Shown here piece after piece: positions 53,548-58,958 of a DNA stretch of 64,000 nt; the first letter of the stretch is position 1; each line of letters starts with the position of its first letter. The translations under genes and the position numbers were made by a program. The DNA comes from Gammaproteobacteria bacterium (lineage in GTDB: Bacteria > Pseudomonadota > Gammaproteobacteria > Pseudomonadales > Pseudohongiellaceae), in the NCBI GenBank assembly GCA_018661465.1, contig JABJIC010000030.1, positions 62,001-126,000 of the forward strand, written 5' to 3'. The notes under the pieces are model-generated. The model ran no database searches. It saw only the letters and a list, made by a program, of their open reading frames with translations, and was not told the DNA's origin.

Positions 53548-54696
53548 ATGAAAATAACACGTCGAGGATTTGTAGGAACTATAGGGCTAGGAGCGGCCAC
53601 CAGTCTTTTATCCGGGACATCATTAATAAACAAAGGTGCCAGTGCGCAGACAGTTGCAGATGCAGAATCCGGTGTTTATGACGGCGGCATCATGCAGCTT
53701 AATCAAAATGAAAGCGCGCGAGGTCCCGGACCTAAAACCATGCAGGCAATTCACGCCCACACTACCAAGAGAGTAGGGCGAGGTTATTCACCTGATCATG
53801 TGAATGAACTTCGATCCGCCCTCGCAGATGAATACAGTGTTGGTCGGGAAAACGTGATGATGGCAACTGGTTCATCGCCTATTCTACGTGGTGCTGTACG
53901 GGCTTTTTGCACGGCTGAAAAAGGACTTGTTTCTGCCGGACCGACATATTCAACCTGCGAACAGGTTGCCAGACAGATCGGTGCTGGATTGGAGGTTATT
54001 ACTCTTGATAACTCCATGCATATCGATCTAGATGGCATGGCGAATGCTGCAGTGGGCGCGGGTTTGGTTTATTTTTGTAATCCCAATAACCCAACTGGGA
54101 CAGTGCATGGCCCCGGGGCAGTTGAGGGCTTCGTCAGACGTATTATGAGAGAGTCGCCGGATACCAAAATCCTGATTGATGAGGCCTATATAAATTACGC
54201 TGCAGAAGGAACAATAGAAACGGCGTTACCTCTGGTTCACGAGTTTGAAAATGTCTTCATCAGTCGTTCTTTTTCTAAGGCCCATGCTCTAGCCGGTTTG
54301 AGAATCGGATATGCGCTGGGGCAGGAACAGACCCTGAAAGCCATGACCGATGTCTGGGGCATGGGTGAGGTCAATATGCTGGGTGCTGTAGCCGCATTAA
54401 CAGCCTTACAGGATAAAGAGCATCTTGAATGGGAGCGGGGAGAGAATGCCGAGATAAGGGCGTTTGTTTCCAATTCATTTCGTGAAATGGGATACGAAGT
54501 TACTGAATCCAGTACTAACCATATCTTTGTAAACCTTCGTCAGCCAGCTAGGGATTTCCGCGCTGCCTGTCTAGAGAACAAGATATTGGTAGGCCGGGAT
54601 TTTCCGCCATTTGAGAATACTCACTGCCGGATTTCCATGGGAAGCCGGGAAGAAATGGCTATCGCTGTAGAGGTGTTTAAGAAAGTTTTAGCCTGA
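53548..54696 (+). CDS. Tat-exported histidinol-phosphate aminotransferase-like enzyme
   Basis: The protein has 382 residues. The start MKITRRGFVGTIGLGAATSL is a twin-arginine signal with a likely cleavage near GASA/QT. The body resembles HisC-type class II aminotransferases: QLNQNESARGPGPK, CNPNNPTGTVHG, LIDEAYINYA and PLP-binding Lys244 (SRSFSKAHALAGLRIGY). It lies 38 bases downstream of the other Tat-exported aminotransferase. It is unlikely to be the biosynthetic HisC because it is exported. It is followed by a strong terminator. Confidence 0.9.
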   Translation: MKITRRGFVGTIGLGAATSLLSGTSLINKGASAQTVADAESGVYDGGIMQLNQNESARGPGPKTMQAIHAHTTKRVGRGYSPDHVNELRSALADEYSVGRENVMMATGSSPILRGAVRAFCTAEKGLVSAGPTYSTCEQVARQIGAGLEVITLDNSMHIDLDGMANAAVGAGLVYFCNPNNPTGTVHGPGAVEGFVRRIMRESPDTKILIDEAYINYAAEGTIETALPLVHEFENVFISRSFSKAHALAGLRIGYALGQEQTLKAMTDVWGMGEVNMLGAVAALTALQDKEHLEWERGENAEIRAFVSNSFREMGYEVTESSTNHIFVNLRQPARDFRAACLENKILVGRDFPPFENTHCRISMGSREEMAIAVEVFKKVLA

Positions 54697-54842: not shown

Positions 54843-56255
54843 ATGAGCAAGCAGAAAGATTTTGAAAAAGCCGCTGAACTGGCACTGCAAGAGGCAGTGA
54901 GCTGGAGGTCAGATGGTGTGAAGTTGCCGGCCATTCCCACTGCCAGTAAGGAAGACATGTTAGCTCTGTTTGACGGAGGGCTTCCTGAGACTGGTAATAG
55001 TGGTGAAGCAGTGATCGAACAACTCATCAAGGCGGCTGAGAATGGATTGGTAAACAACACTCACCCAAACTTCTATTCGTGGGTACAGGGCAGTTCACAC
55101 CCAGTTGGAGTGGCGGCTGATATTTTGACTTCTGCATGGGGACAGAATGCCGCTATTTATCAGACTGCTCCCGCTGCAGCCATAGCCGAAGAAGTTGCTG
55201 CAAAGTGGTTGCTTGAATTGCTTGGGCTTCCCAGTTCTTCTTCGCTTGCTTTCGTAACCGGCGCCACTATGGCTAGTTTTATCTGCCTGGCGGCTGCTAG
55301 AAGTGAGGCTCTCAAACGCCATGGTTATGATCTCGAGGAAGAGGGCATGAGTGATGCTCCTGCCATTCATGTCTTCCTCGGAGCTGAAGCCCACGCGACC
55401 ATTTTGTCGGATCTTCGTTATTTGGGCTTCGGTCGAAATAATCTTGTGTTTATAGATGTGGATGATCAAGGACGGATGCTGGCGGACGATTTGCGACAGC
55501 AGATGAAGAATTTCGAGGGCCCCAAAATAGTCATTGCACAAGCGGGCCATATTAACTCCGGGGCCTTTGATCCCTTCAATGAAATTGTAGATATTGCCAG
55601 GAGTCACGACACCTGGGTTCACGTGGATGGAGCATTCGGTCTGTGGGCAAATGTCGTTCCTGAATTGAGCGACCTTTGTGCCGGCATAGAGAAGGCCGAC
55701 TCTTGGACAGTTGATGGTCATAAGTGGTTGCAGGTTCCATATGACTCCGGGTTTGCAATCGTAAAACATCCTGACGCTCACAAGCGGGCAATGGACATTT
55801 CAGCGAGCTATCTTGTCAGGGATGAGAGAGACGGTCGCAACCCAAGTCAATTTAGCCCTGAGCTTTCTCGCAGATCTAGAGGCTTTGTGGTTTGGGCTGT
55901 TTTACAGGCGATGGGCAAGCAAGGTGTTCAAGAGATGGTGGCACGCCACTGCCGCTGCGCGCTTCACTTGCAGAGTCGACTTGCGGAGGTTTCTGGTGTT
56001 CGCATACTCAACGAAGTAAGACTCAACCAGGTAGCCATAGCATTTGGTGAGGGAGCTTCGTCTGAGGAATGTGATCGAATGACTAATGAAGTTATCGATG
56101 AGATAAGATTGGAAAACACAAATTTTGTTCTGGGCGCTCGCTGGAAAGAGCAAGTAATCCTGCGAATTTCCATAATTTCATTGTTCACTGATTTGGAACA
56201 CATCGACAGTTTGGCTGATTCAATAATCAGGGCGTGGGCAAAAGTTGCTCGCTAA
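54843..56255 (+). CDS. PLP-dependent group II decarboxylase family protein
   Basis: The protein has 470 residues. The family is shown by NTHPNFYSWVQGSSHPVG, FVTGATMASFICLAAAR, VHVDGAFGLWA (Asp binding PLP) and PLP-binding Lys294 in VDGHKWLQVPYDSGFA. It resembles aromatic-L-amino-acid/glutamate decarboxylases. There is no signal peptide. The next gene, encoding the selenoprotein, starts 28 bases after its stop, so the two are probably cotranscribed. Confidence 0.92.
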   Translation: MSKQKDFEKAAELALQEAVSWRSDGVKLPAIPTASKEDMLALFDGGLPETGNSGEAVIEQLIKAAENGLVNNTHPNFYSWVQGSSHPVGVAADILTSAWGQNAAIYQTAPAAAIAEEVAAKWLLELLGLPSSSSLAFVTGATMASFICLAAARSEALKRHGYDLEEEGMSDAPAIHVFLGAEAHATILSDLRYLGFGRNNLVFIDVDDQGRMLADDLRQQMKNFEGPKIVIAQAGHINSGAFDPFNEIVDIARSHDTWVHVDGAFGLWANVVPELSDLCAGIEKADSWTVDGHKWLQVPYDSGFAIVKHPDAHKRAMDISASYLVRDERDGRNPSQFSPELSRRSRGFVVWAVLQAMGKQGVQEMVARHCRCALHLQSRLAEVSGVRILNEVRLNQVAIAFGEGASSEECDRMTNEVIDEIRLENTNFVLGARWKEQVILRISIISLFTDLEHIDSLADSIIRAWAKVAR

Positions 56256-56283
56256 GTATTTTTGTAAGTGAATGAGGTTTTAG

Positions 56284-57429
56284 ATGTCAGATAGAGAAGT
56301 AAAGGCTTTGGCGGAGAATGTAGATGCGCCGCAGTTTGAGGTAATGGCGTTCACAATTCCTCCTGAATTGAGTAAGGCAAAGGTTGCCGTAGTTACATCG
56401 GCTTCTTTGCATCACGTAGATCAGGATGATTTTGATCCGGCCGATGAGGGTTTTCGAGTTCTCGACAATAGGAAAAGAGACTTCCAATCCGGTCACTGGA
56501 GTCCGAATTTTGATAGCACAGGTTTCGCGGTTGATTTTAATACAGTGATTCCGCTGGATAGATTGGATGAGCTTGAGCGGGATGGAAAAATAGGAAAGGT
56601 TTCTGATGTTCATCTTTCATATGCCGGGAATCAATTCGATCTCAGCGCCATTCGAATGGACAGTGGGCCGGCGGGTGCAAAATTGCTGAAAGAAGCCGGG
56701 GTCGACGTCGTACTGCTCACCCCGGTCTGACCTCTTTGCACGCGTACCGTGAGTACGCTAGCACATGTATTTGAAGCAGCTGGTTTAGCGACAGTCGCTC
56801 TTGGATCAGTTCGTAAACAAATTGAAAGCACAGCGCCACCCCGTGGTTTGATATGTAACTTTCCCCTAGGTAGACCTCTAGGTAAACCTGACGATGGGGA
56901 ATTTCAACATCGTGTTTTGGCCCACGCTTTTTCTCTTCTTGATTCAAGCGAGCCCGTTCTTGATGAATTTGATGACGCAATCGAAGATGATAGTACTGAA
57001 GTCCTTGCCTGCCCCTTACCGGCCCGCAGCAATGAAAATCTTCATCCGGCAATCGATGAGTTGCGAGGCTTGCGACCCGCCTATGACAGAGGGATATCGA
57101 AATACGGTAATCGAGCTGGCACAGGAAGAGCAATCGGAGTTGATGAACTCGAAGCAGCGATTGAGGCTTTAGTTCGGGTTAGCGAAGGAACTCCCTGGAA
57201 ACAGGCTGGAATTCCAGGCATCCCCTCCCGTGTGGCGCAGGATATTCGAGGCTACTATGAAACGGCCGCACTAGGTTTGAGTGATCATATTCCCGCTGCA
57301 TGGGCTGGTACAAATTGGTTTTTCGACGAAACTGAGAGTGGCAAACTGGTATTGGCGGCACGGGCAGTTATGCGTGACGCTGGAGAAAAGAGACCAATCT
57401 GGTTCTATATGACTCCAGGAGATCGTTAG
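56284..57429 (+). CDS. Selenoprotein of the GrdB/PrdB (glycine/sarcosine/betaine/proline reductase B) family, with in-frame UGA = Sec149
   Basis: Conventional reading gives two ORFs, 56284-56730 and 56749-57429, but they are one frame interrupted by TGA at 56728-56730. Across it the protein reads VVLLTPV-U-PLCTRTVSTLAHV, giving a U-P-L-C redox motif (Sec149, Cys152) and 381 residues in all. The C-terminal part has GLATVALGSVRK, APPRGLICNFPLGRPLGKPD and IWFYMTPGDR, matching the selenoprotein B reductase family. The GTG at 56749 is inside the protein and has no good ribosome site, while ATG 56284 has TGAGG. A SECIS-like hairpin follows the UGA. selO starts 5 bases after the stop. The substrate is unknown; clostridial relatives act in amino-acid reductases, but aerobic homologues are uncharacterised. 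Confidence 0.88.
56731..56763 (+). promoter_or_regulatory. Predicted bacterial SECIS element directing selenocysteine insertion at UGA 56728
   Basis: Directly after the UGA, GCGTAC (56742-56747) pairs perfectly with GTACGC (56753-56758) around the five-base loop CGTGA. TGC (56737-56739) pairs with GCA (56761-56763) below a two-base internal mismatch. The loop begins 17 bases after the UGA and has G as its second base, in line with the published bacterial SECIS consensus as I recall it (short G-containing apical loop about 16-37 bases after UGA). The element lies within coding sequence, as SelB-dependent bacterial elements do. Confidence 0.8.
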
Positions 57430-57434
57430 TCAAA

Positions 57435-58958
57435 ATGATATCTTCGAATAGCTATATTGGTTTGGGTGAACGGTTCTACGAAGAAGAGCAGCCTATTCCT
57501 GTATCAGAACCAGAGCTGTTTCTGTGGAATGATGGTCTTGCTGAACAACTTCAGATATGTGAAATCCTGGGCCTGGACTCTTGCTCCAACCCCGGCTCCA
57601 ACTCCAAGGATTTCTCAGAAAAAGACAGTAAGATTCTAGCCGAATATTTTTCCGGTAATCAGATAGTTCCTGATTCCAGTCCTATAGCTCTCGCCTACGC
57701 AGGTCATCAGTTCGGTCAATTCAATCCGCAGCTGGGAGACGGCAGGGCGCATTTACTCGGAGAAGTTTTAGATCGCGATGGCAAGTATTGGGATCTCCAG
57801 CTCAAAGGCTCAGGCCCTACTTCTTTTTCTCGAGGCGGCGACGGACGTTGCGGTATCGGTCCGGCAATAAGGGAATTTCTGATGAGTGAAGCAATGCATG
57901 CTCTCGGTGTCCCGAGTACGCGTTGCCTCTCAGTGGTAACTACAGGGGAAGCAGTATACCGAGACCGAGTACTACCTGGAGCCGTTGTTAGCCGAATAGC
58001 ATCTAGCCATCTTCGCGTTGGCAGTTTTCAATTCTATGCTGCTCGTGGAGACGTCGAGGCATTACAATTGCTTCGCGATTTTGCTATCGAGAAACATTGT
58101 CCTGAATTTGGGCCAAGCTTTGGTTCAGAGGTAAGAGATGATAAAGAGCGAACGCTTCTGCTTCTGGATTGGGCAATAGAAAAACAGATTCATCTCGTGG
58201 TGGAGTGGATGCGAGTAGGTTTTATACATGGAGTATTGAATACGGACAACACAGCGCTCTCAGGAGAGACTATTGATTTTGGACCCTGCGCAATGATGGG
58301 CGTTTACGATCCGGCGACGGTATATAGCTCGATTGATCATATGGGCAGATATGCTTTCGGCAAACAGCCGAATATTATCCACTGGAATCTTGCAAGATTT
58401 GCTGAGTGTTTACTGCCTTTGATCAAAGAAGATGACAAGCAGTCGGCGGATAAAATCGAATCGATGATTGCCGAGGTGCCAGATAGAATCAGTGAGAAAT
58501 ATAGTTCGATGATGGCGAGCAAGTTTGGCATTGCCGCTCAGGTTTCCAGTGACAGTGATTTACTGAACTCATTGCTGGAACATTTCGCTGTAAATAAGTT
58601 GGACTATACAAATACTTTTAATCTTCTGACTGAATCCTTGAGCTCGGGCTCTGCCCGAGAACAATCAGAAGGTTTGCTGAAACAATTTTTTCCAATCTGG
58701 TGGAGCCGGATTGTAGACCAGGAAATTTCGATGGAACAAGTTCAGGCTCTGATGCGAAAAAATAATCCTGTGGTCATACCAAGAAACCATCATGTTGAAG
58801 CCGCAGTGAAGTCAGCTGAAGAGGCTCTGGACCCAGCGCTTGCAAACAGGATGCTTGAGGTAATGCGAAACCCCTATAGGTCAACAACTAACACAGCTCT
58901 CTATCAAGACCTTCCTGTGGATGGAGATAAGCAGTACCAAACCTTCTGTGGAACTTGA
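57435..58958 (+). CDS. selO: Protein adenylyltransferase SelO (YdiU family)
   Basis: The protein has 507 residues. Diagnostic segments are ALAYAGHQFGQFNPQLGDGRAHLLGE, LQLKGSGPTSFSRGGDGRCGIGPAIREFLMSEAMHALGVP and HGVLNTDNTALSGETIDFGPCAMM, with the inverted-kinase metal-binding residues. SelO is a pseudokinase-fold enzyme that transfers AMP to protein hydroxyls and responds to oxidative stress. Eukaryotic SelO has Sec near its C-terminus; here the last residues are FCGT, so Cys takes that place. It lies 5 bases after the selenoprotein gene and is probably cotranscribed with it. Confidence 0.95.
   Translation: MISSNSYIGLGERFYEEEQPIPVSEPELFLWNDGLAEQLQICEILGLDSCSNPGSNSKDFSEKDSKILAEYFSGNQIVPDSSPIALAYAGHQFGQFNPQLGDGRAHLLGEVLDRDGKYWDLQLKGSGPTSFSRGGDGRCGIGPAIREFLMSEAMHALGVPSTRCLSVVTTGEAVYRDRVLPGAVVSRIASSHLRVGSFQFYAARGDVEALQLLRDFAIEKHCPEFGPSFGSEVRDDKERTLLLLDWAIEKQIHLVVEWMRVGFIHGVLNTDNTALSGETIDFGPCAMMGVYDPATVYSSIDHMGRYAFGKQPNIIHWNLARFAECLLPLIKEDDKQSADKIESMIAEVPDRISEKYSSMMASKFGIAAQVSSDSDLLNSLLEHFAVNKLDYTNTFNLLTESLSSGSAREQSEGLLKQFFPIWWSRIVDQEISMEQVQALMRKNNPVVIPRNHHVEAAVKSAEEALDPALANRMLEVMRNPYRSTTNTALYQDLPVDGDKQYQTFCGT

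Follow-up and report, generated by a model that had tools for sequence, protein, structure and literature searches.

The locus raises the question of whether two open reading frames separated by a TGA codon are a single gene encoding a selenoprotein, and if so, to which kind of enzyme this gene belongs. The window analysed here, i.e. the whole stretch of 64,000 nucleotides, contains a frame running from ATG 56284 to TAG 57427–57429, which comprises 381 residues plus the stop and a single internal TGA at codon 149. A mechanical open reading frame listing with translation table 11 cuts this frame into pieces of 148 and 226 aa, the second starting at GTG 56749. No Shine–Dalgarno-like site was seen by eye ahead of this GTG, in line with the initial annotation, which had described the second half as possessing an internal GTG only and no ribosome site. 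TGA serves as the normal stop in two of the 11 window genes looked at, a HisC-like gene (at 53548) and selO, indicating that the genetic code is not changed here; a recoded TGA was thus ruled out. The coordinates of all features are compiled in Table 1.

Table 1 Features of the selenoprotein locus and its direct neighbours in the window.
Feature	Coordinates	Strand	Remarks
PLP-dependent decarboxylase (PF00282)	54843..56255	+	28 nt upstream of the Sec gene; not found in the flanks of 80 relatives
Shine–Dalgarno-like GAGG	56274..56277	+	6 nt ahead of ATG 56284; by eye
Long-form GrdB/PrdB-like selenoprotein gene	56284..57429	+	381 aa, U149-P-L-C152
GrdB/PrdB-like alpha/beta core	56284..56943	+	about aa 1–220; from family matches and model
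In-frame UGA, read as selenocysteine residue 149	56728..56730	+	TGA kept in relatives; sel machinery in the genome
SECIS-like hairpin	56737..56763	+	stems 56737–56739/56761–56763 and 56742–56747/56753–56758; loop CGUGA 56748–56752
C-terminal, mostly helical domain	56947..57426	+	about aa 222–381; no Pfam match; whole-protein matches stop at aa 219
selO/YdiU protein adenylyltransferase	57435..58958	+	begins 5 nt downstream of the Sec gene; no internal TGA

To read the TGA in the light of its conservation, we used a profile search of the named genomes, which yielded 190 confirmed stretches, the best 80 of which were read. These are relatives of the same long form, in which the core is followed by a C-terminal domain. 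All 80 of them carry TGA at the Sec codon, as recounted from the DNA, and so do all 14 further long-form frames, at least three of which lie on contigs already among the 80. Among these copies (best 80 of 190, plus the 14 frames) no Cys-bearing long form was found, even though one of the two search patterns carried Cys at the Sec position and would have favoured such forms; Cys long forms may exist among the remaining 110 confirmed stretches. An alignment of 77 rows, as suggested by the initial annotation, revealed that Sec149 is invariant and that Cys occupies position 149 in none of the rows. The other invariant residues on either side of it include P150, C152, H71, D77, N86, H110, R187, R197 and W345. 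The loci L112, L115, L135 and L148 were omitted from this alignment because they are truncated or contain an extra upstream TGA; all four carry TGA at the Sec codon. By its sequence, the locus is therefore confirmed as one frame with a Sec-type UGA, and the continuity across the TGA that had been claimed for it holds throughout the aligned rows.

The genome of the window, a 3.26 Mb draft with a completeness of 97.7%, encodes the entire machinery for selenocysteine incorporation, on whose presence the initial annotation had made its reading depend: selA (576.6 bits), selB (402.2 bits), tRNA-Sec (selC; 64.9 bits, above the gathering score) and selD (272.5 bits, located within a 788-codon open frame).

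Directly after the UGA we observed a putative SECIS hairpin (MFE −11.2), whose loop begins 17 nt past the UGA and has its G early in the loop. Compared with dinucleotide shuffles, this hairpin is weak, exhibiting a z of −1.35 with 20 of 200 shuffles equally good, whereas synonymous codon shuffles, which keep the protein fixed, resulted in a z of −1.83. Across the family, the mean synonymous-shuffle z at the UGA was −1.5 (69% of the genes below −1), compared with values of −0.30 to +0.09 (10–25% below −1) at seven control offsets. This excess at the UGA indicates that the hairpin is selected beyond the amino-acid code. Likewise, a hairpin of at least five pairs at the set distance with a G within the first two loop bases was present in 76 of 81 genes at the UGA and in 17–34 of 81 at the seven control offsets, where hairpins with any loop are also frequent (42–65 of 81). 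The case for a SECIS element, already proposed in the initial annotation, rests on the synonymous-shuffle test, the folding score against dinucleotide shuffles being weak by itself. No Rfam match was obtained between 56000 and 57500 at E ≤ 1.

Together, these data lead us to conclude that the window gene almost certainly encodes a genuine selenoprotein. A pseudogene or a sequencing error at the TGA would account for the broken table-11 frame, but the same TGA in the 80 relatives read, the conservation of the protein on both sides of it, the selected hairpin and the presence of the Sec machinery leave this reading with a practically negligible probability, and it was ruled out.

We next asked to which family the protein belongs. 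Its core (aa 25–219) matches the PrdB model TIGR04483 with 103.2 bits, far from the cut-off of 300, and TIGR01918 with 56.0 bits compared with a cut-off of 65.45; the protein also remains under the cut-offs of TIGR01917, NF040794 and NF040795. For PF07355 the score of 33.9 exceeds the gathering threshold of 22, with only the profile positions 222–345 of 347 being matched. The family signal is shared by the aligned long forms, all 77 of which match TIGR04483 at E ≤ 0.001 and PF07355 at E ≤ 0.01, the match positions being given for the first member only (end at aa 219). The homologous core bearing the U/C-P-x-C motif thus places the protein within the GrdB/PrdB superfamily, in agreement with the UPLC motif that the initial annotation had recognised inside a GrdB/PrdB-type protein. 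For the C-terminal domain we found no Pfam or NCBIfam family, and the second half of the protein searched alone yielded no Pfam match. The sole other family besides the GrdB/PrdB-type ones was UGSC, to which two of the 77 long forms showed a weak match (best E 0.0047); this similarity hints at a relationship between the two families UGSC and GrdB.

An AlphaFold2 model calculated on the 77 rows displayed a pLDDT of 88 and a pTM of 0.90. In this model, Sec149 is predicted to sit between the strand formed by residues 142–146 and the amino terminus of the helix comprising residues 150–165. Searches for solved structures by sequence gave a best E of 0.097 with phmmer and nothing at E ≤ 1 with a profile. 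Foldseek against the PDB returned weak matches only (best E 4.5e-4 with a TM of 0.25), and against viral models none at E ≤ 0.001.

The known reductases of this superfamily work with partner subunits, which we therefore sought in the genomes of the carriers. Neither PF09338 (the pyruvoyl-type PrdA/GrdE) nor PF04723 (GrdA) was found in the genome of the window, consistent with the stand-alone character that had been assigned to the gene. Each was detected in one of 30 long-form carrier genomes, both in the same Desulfobacterales genome, so that 29 of the 30 carriers lack both. The low scores relative to the curated cut-offs and the missing PF09338 and PF04723 proteins argue that the protein is not a known reductase subunit as defined, and on these grounds membership in D-proline reductase PrdB or in GrdB was ruled out. 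Clostridial PrdB resembles the window protein in its core (aligned over aa 25–219) and in its UxxC motif with Sec, but its model is 238 residues long compared with 381 aa, and in the clostridial control locus prdA lies near prdB with one small gene in between. The GrdB/GrdF/GrdH proteins (PF07355, TIGR01918) share the Sec motif and the PF07355 match above gathering, whereas the genome of the window contains neither GrdA nor a GrdE/GrdG-type partner. The short form of about 300 aa, annotated as 'glycine/sarcosine/betaine reductase selenoprotein B family protein', is part of the same superfamily, but is shorter, forms a separate clade in the tree and has both Sec and Cys members.

The quick tree, built without bootstrap and without the loci L115, L135 and L148, places 85 long forms on one side of a branch with an SH-aLRT of 95, and 13 short forms together with clostridial PrdB and GrdF on the other side. 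On the basis of sequence, the window gene is a member of a distinct long-form clade that combines a GrdB/PrdB-like core with a C-terminal helical domain of its own. Within this clade it is drawn as the outermost row with an end branch of 2.01 and a best identity to the others of 35%; its exact place is unsure because long branches meet there. The long-form branch is widespread: the best 80 of the 190 relatives derive from Alpha-, Beta- and Gammaproteobacteria, desulfobacterial and myxococcal 'Deltaproteobacteria' and Chloroflexi, and include one Clostridiales and one Flavobacteriales MAG. The contig of the latter (L103) and one from a 'Halieaceae' MAG (L098) group tightly with alphaproteobacterial rows and are probably mis-binned.

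Closer to the window the long form is rare. Within the class, eight of 369 genomes match at E ≤ 1e-10, three of them with the full-length form: the genome of the window and a pair from a single other genus. Among 398 sampled genomes of the phylum, the genome of the window was the only match at E ≤ 1e-25, and at the same threshold the family of the other carrier genus showed matches in 10 of 41 genomes at 14 places. Of the 24 other genomes searched in the genus of the window, 17 have a match at E ≤ 1e-10, in each case to a short-form paralogue distinct from the long form (about residues 22–224 of the query), the long form being confined to the genome of the window. This short-form gene bears a TGA in 17 of the 24 genomes (17 of the 37 other relatives covered). 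The genome of the window also has a second Sec gene belonging to the superfamily (C27:83331-83750; L028, L070), a short form of about 300 aa with a UPVC motif. Ten pattern matches in viral contigs contained no confirmed relative, and a phage or viral origin was ruled out accordingly. Among plasmids, 24 records had a match, none of which covered 80% of the query. The 20 plasmid matches listed for the window protein are PrdB/GrdF-type proteins of clostridial, enterococcal and lactobacillar origin plus one alphaproteobacterial short form, and a second alphaproteobacterial short form on a plasmid (Haematobacter) was listed with the Roseomonas query.

We then assessed the gene neighbourhoods, grouping the neighbours by BLAST clustering and scanning one or two representatives of each cluster to assign its family. 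As the initial annotation had stated, selO directly follows the Sec gene in the window. Its further suggestion of a pathway formed by the selenoprotein with the PLP decarboxylase and SelO is not supported as stated: around the 80 long-form loci (best 80 of 190; tblastn E ≤ 1e-5), the flanking sequence fetched contains neither gene. Of these loci, 59 extend by 1.5 kb or more to each side, while many end at contig ends, making these absences incomplete. The PLP decarboxylase has one other copy, 36% identical, among 37 other relatives at E ≤ 1e-60. Over 162 fetched loci (tblastn E ≤ 1e-5), selO was found in the locus of the window and in Roseomonas haemaphysalidis only, where a short-form Cys relative on a plasmid (L160:3890-6275) is arranged tail-to-tail with selO at a distance of 4 nt. 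With a distant short form as its single other case, the selO link is regarded as an anecdote.

Two other associations emerged from the relatives. In one sub-clade, selA, selB or selD is present in 32 of 37 loci, compared with 6 of the 43 other long-form loci, which comprise 40 placed elsewhere in the tree and the three outside it (L115, L135 and L148); L115 and L135 bear the UPFC motif of the sub-clade and probably belong to it. In 13 of the 80 loci, selD follows the long-form gene in the same orientation at a distance of at most 400 nt. The gene in the window has no adjacent sel genes. The same sub-clade exhibits onium-type neighbours in 9 of 37 loci, compared with none of the 43 others. This set consists of a GcvT-fold methyltransferase, an OpuAC betaine-type binding protein, a BetI-type regulator and a choline dehydrogenase, and five of the nine loci contain all four. 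The varying order of these genes speaks against a single arrangement having simply been inherited. The nearest NCBIfam models of the GcvT-fold neighbour are TMAO demethylase, GcvT and DMSP demethylase, all under cut-off, and a TorA/BisC-type oxide reductase is present in six loci. A GcvT-type gene (E ≤ 1e-40) was detected in 22 of 30 carrier genomes, the genome of the window not being among them, so the onium idea is not simply transferable to the window gene. GST_N_3 domains were found in 6 of 55 adjacent same-strand genes, stemming from three lineages with two loci each, compared with at most one match per GST model in 110 distant genes (a random draw from 218 far genes; the 25 commonest families were compared per set); of the three GST families, that of L095 matches only weakly (best E 1.6e-4). 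Both the GST and the onium associations rest on few independent lineages.

Based on these data we tentatively favour, at a level of confidence that stays on the doubtful side, a selenol/thiol reductase that has a small molecule as its substrate and works without a pyruvoyl partner. The selenolate of Sec149 at the helix amino terminus would attack the substrate directly, thereby removing a leaving group or reducing an oxidised group. Cys152 would resolve the Se adduct as a selenenyl-sulfide, to be reduced by cellular thiols such as glutathione or thioredoxin. Such an enzyme would be related to betaine or D-proline reductase but work alone, its C-terminal domain perhaps binding the substrate or standing in for the partner subunit. 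For the sub-clade, methylated onium compounds or products of their breakdown are possible substrates. Several points speak against this proposal: the window gene is a long-branch outlier, it lacks the neighbours of the sub-clade and no solved structure resembles the protein well. In an extended version of the proposal, aerobic marine bacteria might use selenium to cleave methylated onium compounds of the betaine, choline or sulfonium type reductively and without partner proteins, one Sec protein with a helical domain of its own replacing the pyruvoyl subunit and its gene being usually accompanied by selA, selB or selD in one sub-clade. We regard this extended version as decidedly unlikely; if true, it would constitute an aerobic counterpart of clostridial betaine reductase.

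The same data can be read differently. The UxxC motif, the GST genes that precede the long-form gene in three lineages, the MAPEG and GFA genes near it in other lineages and the adjoining SelO in the window, a protein that passages of the literature tie to redox homeostasis (PMC10364804), would also suit a general thiol/selenol oxidoreductase of oxidative stress or glutathione metabolism, reducing peroxides, disulfides or GS-conjugates rather than cleaving C–N or C–S bonds. We consider this somewhat unlikely, as the matched families are all of the GrdB/PrdB type, apart from the weak UGSC matches, with no thioredoxin or peroxiredoxin among them. The conserved polar residues beyond the motif furthermore suggest a substrate pocket, and the onium-type genes of the sub-clade point in the same direction.

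A role in selenium handling itself, be it delivery, storage or sensing, would explain the place of the gene beside selA, selB and selD in the sub-clade and the closely following selD. The scarcity of sel genes at the other long-form loci and their absence next to the window gene render it very unlikely, and selenoprotein genes often travel with sel genes in any case. Finally, the family core and the Sec motif would be in agreement with a D-proline or glycine/betaine reductase subunit having an unrecognised partner; given scores under all five curated cut-offs and a genome devoid of PF09338 and PF04723 proteins, this is highly improbable. The reductase acting without a partner remains the reading that we favour.

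Selenoproteins of this superfamily have been noted in the sea before. The 2005 analysis of the Sargasso Sea set lists Sec 'PrdB' as the third most abundant selenoprotein family with 42 Sec sequences and a UXXC motif (PMC1088965), and 235 Sec 'PrdB' sequences were reported from the GOS data in 2008 (PMC2398784). As described there, and compared by description rather than by sequence, these proteins resemble the long form in family, UxxC motif and the use of Sec in marine bacteria, whereas the C-terminal domain, the missing partners and the gene clusters go unmentioned in the relevant passages on PrdB. The initial annotation had regarded a marine Sec-containing member as a gap in knowledge by itself, which is not supported as stated in view of these reports; its interpretation stands with respect to selenocysteine, family core, SECIS and lacking partners, and lacks support as stated with respect to the marine gap and the neighbour-defined pathway. 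In their relevant passages, a 2006 survey names 'proline reductase' selenoproteins in Anaeromyxobacter dehalogenans and Geobacter uraniumreducens (PMC1794560), a 2026 review describes the family via the clostridial enzymes (PMC13188914), and the main text of a 2025 study on glycine-betaine demethylation in marine bacteria contains no words starting with 'selen' (PMC12478193). The sections of these Sec 'PrdB' and betaine papers that were available describe neither a long-form clade with a domain of its own, nor its Sec-only record among the copies read, nor the lack of partners, nor either of the neighbourhood associations. Literature searches, with subscription papers mostly outside their scope, yielded nothing tying selenoproteins to glycine betaine in Rhodobacteraceae or betaine reductase to alphaproteobacteria, and nothing joining selenocysteine, choline dehydrogenase and proline reductase. 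Sec 'PrdB' is among the commonest selenoproteins in the sea-water sets described, yet its name implies a clostridial fermentation enzyme. The long forms lack that enzyme's partners, curated scores and architecture, and each of the copies read carries Sec. Should some published sequences prove to be long forms, a misleading label would turn into a testable question, namely what purpose the selenium economy of these bacteria serves.

Two arrangements were observed in addition. Between 50334 and 54696, the window contains three consecutive aminotransferase-like PLP genes, two of which have Tat-like amino termini; the PLP decarboxylase and the Sec gene come after them. The third of these aminotransferase-like genes alone was scanned against families, the others being assigned by eye and BLAST clustering. 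At three loci (L059–L061; G786:C267, G787:C376 and G812:C26), two different long-form Sec genes flank selA–selB on one contig, accompanied in two of the three by an iron alcohol dehydrogenase.
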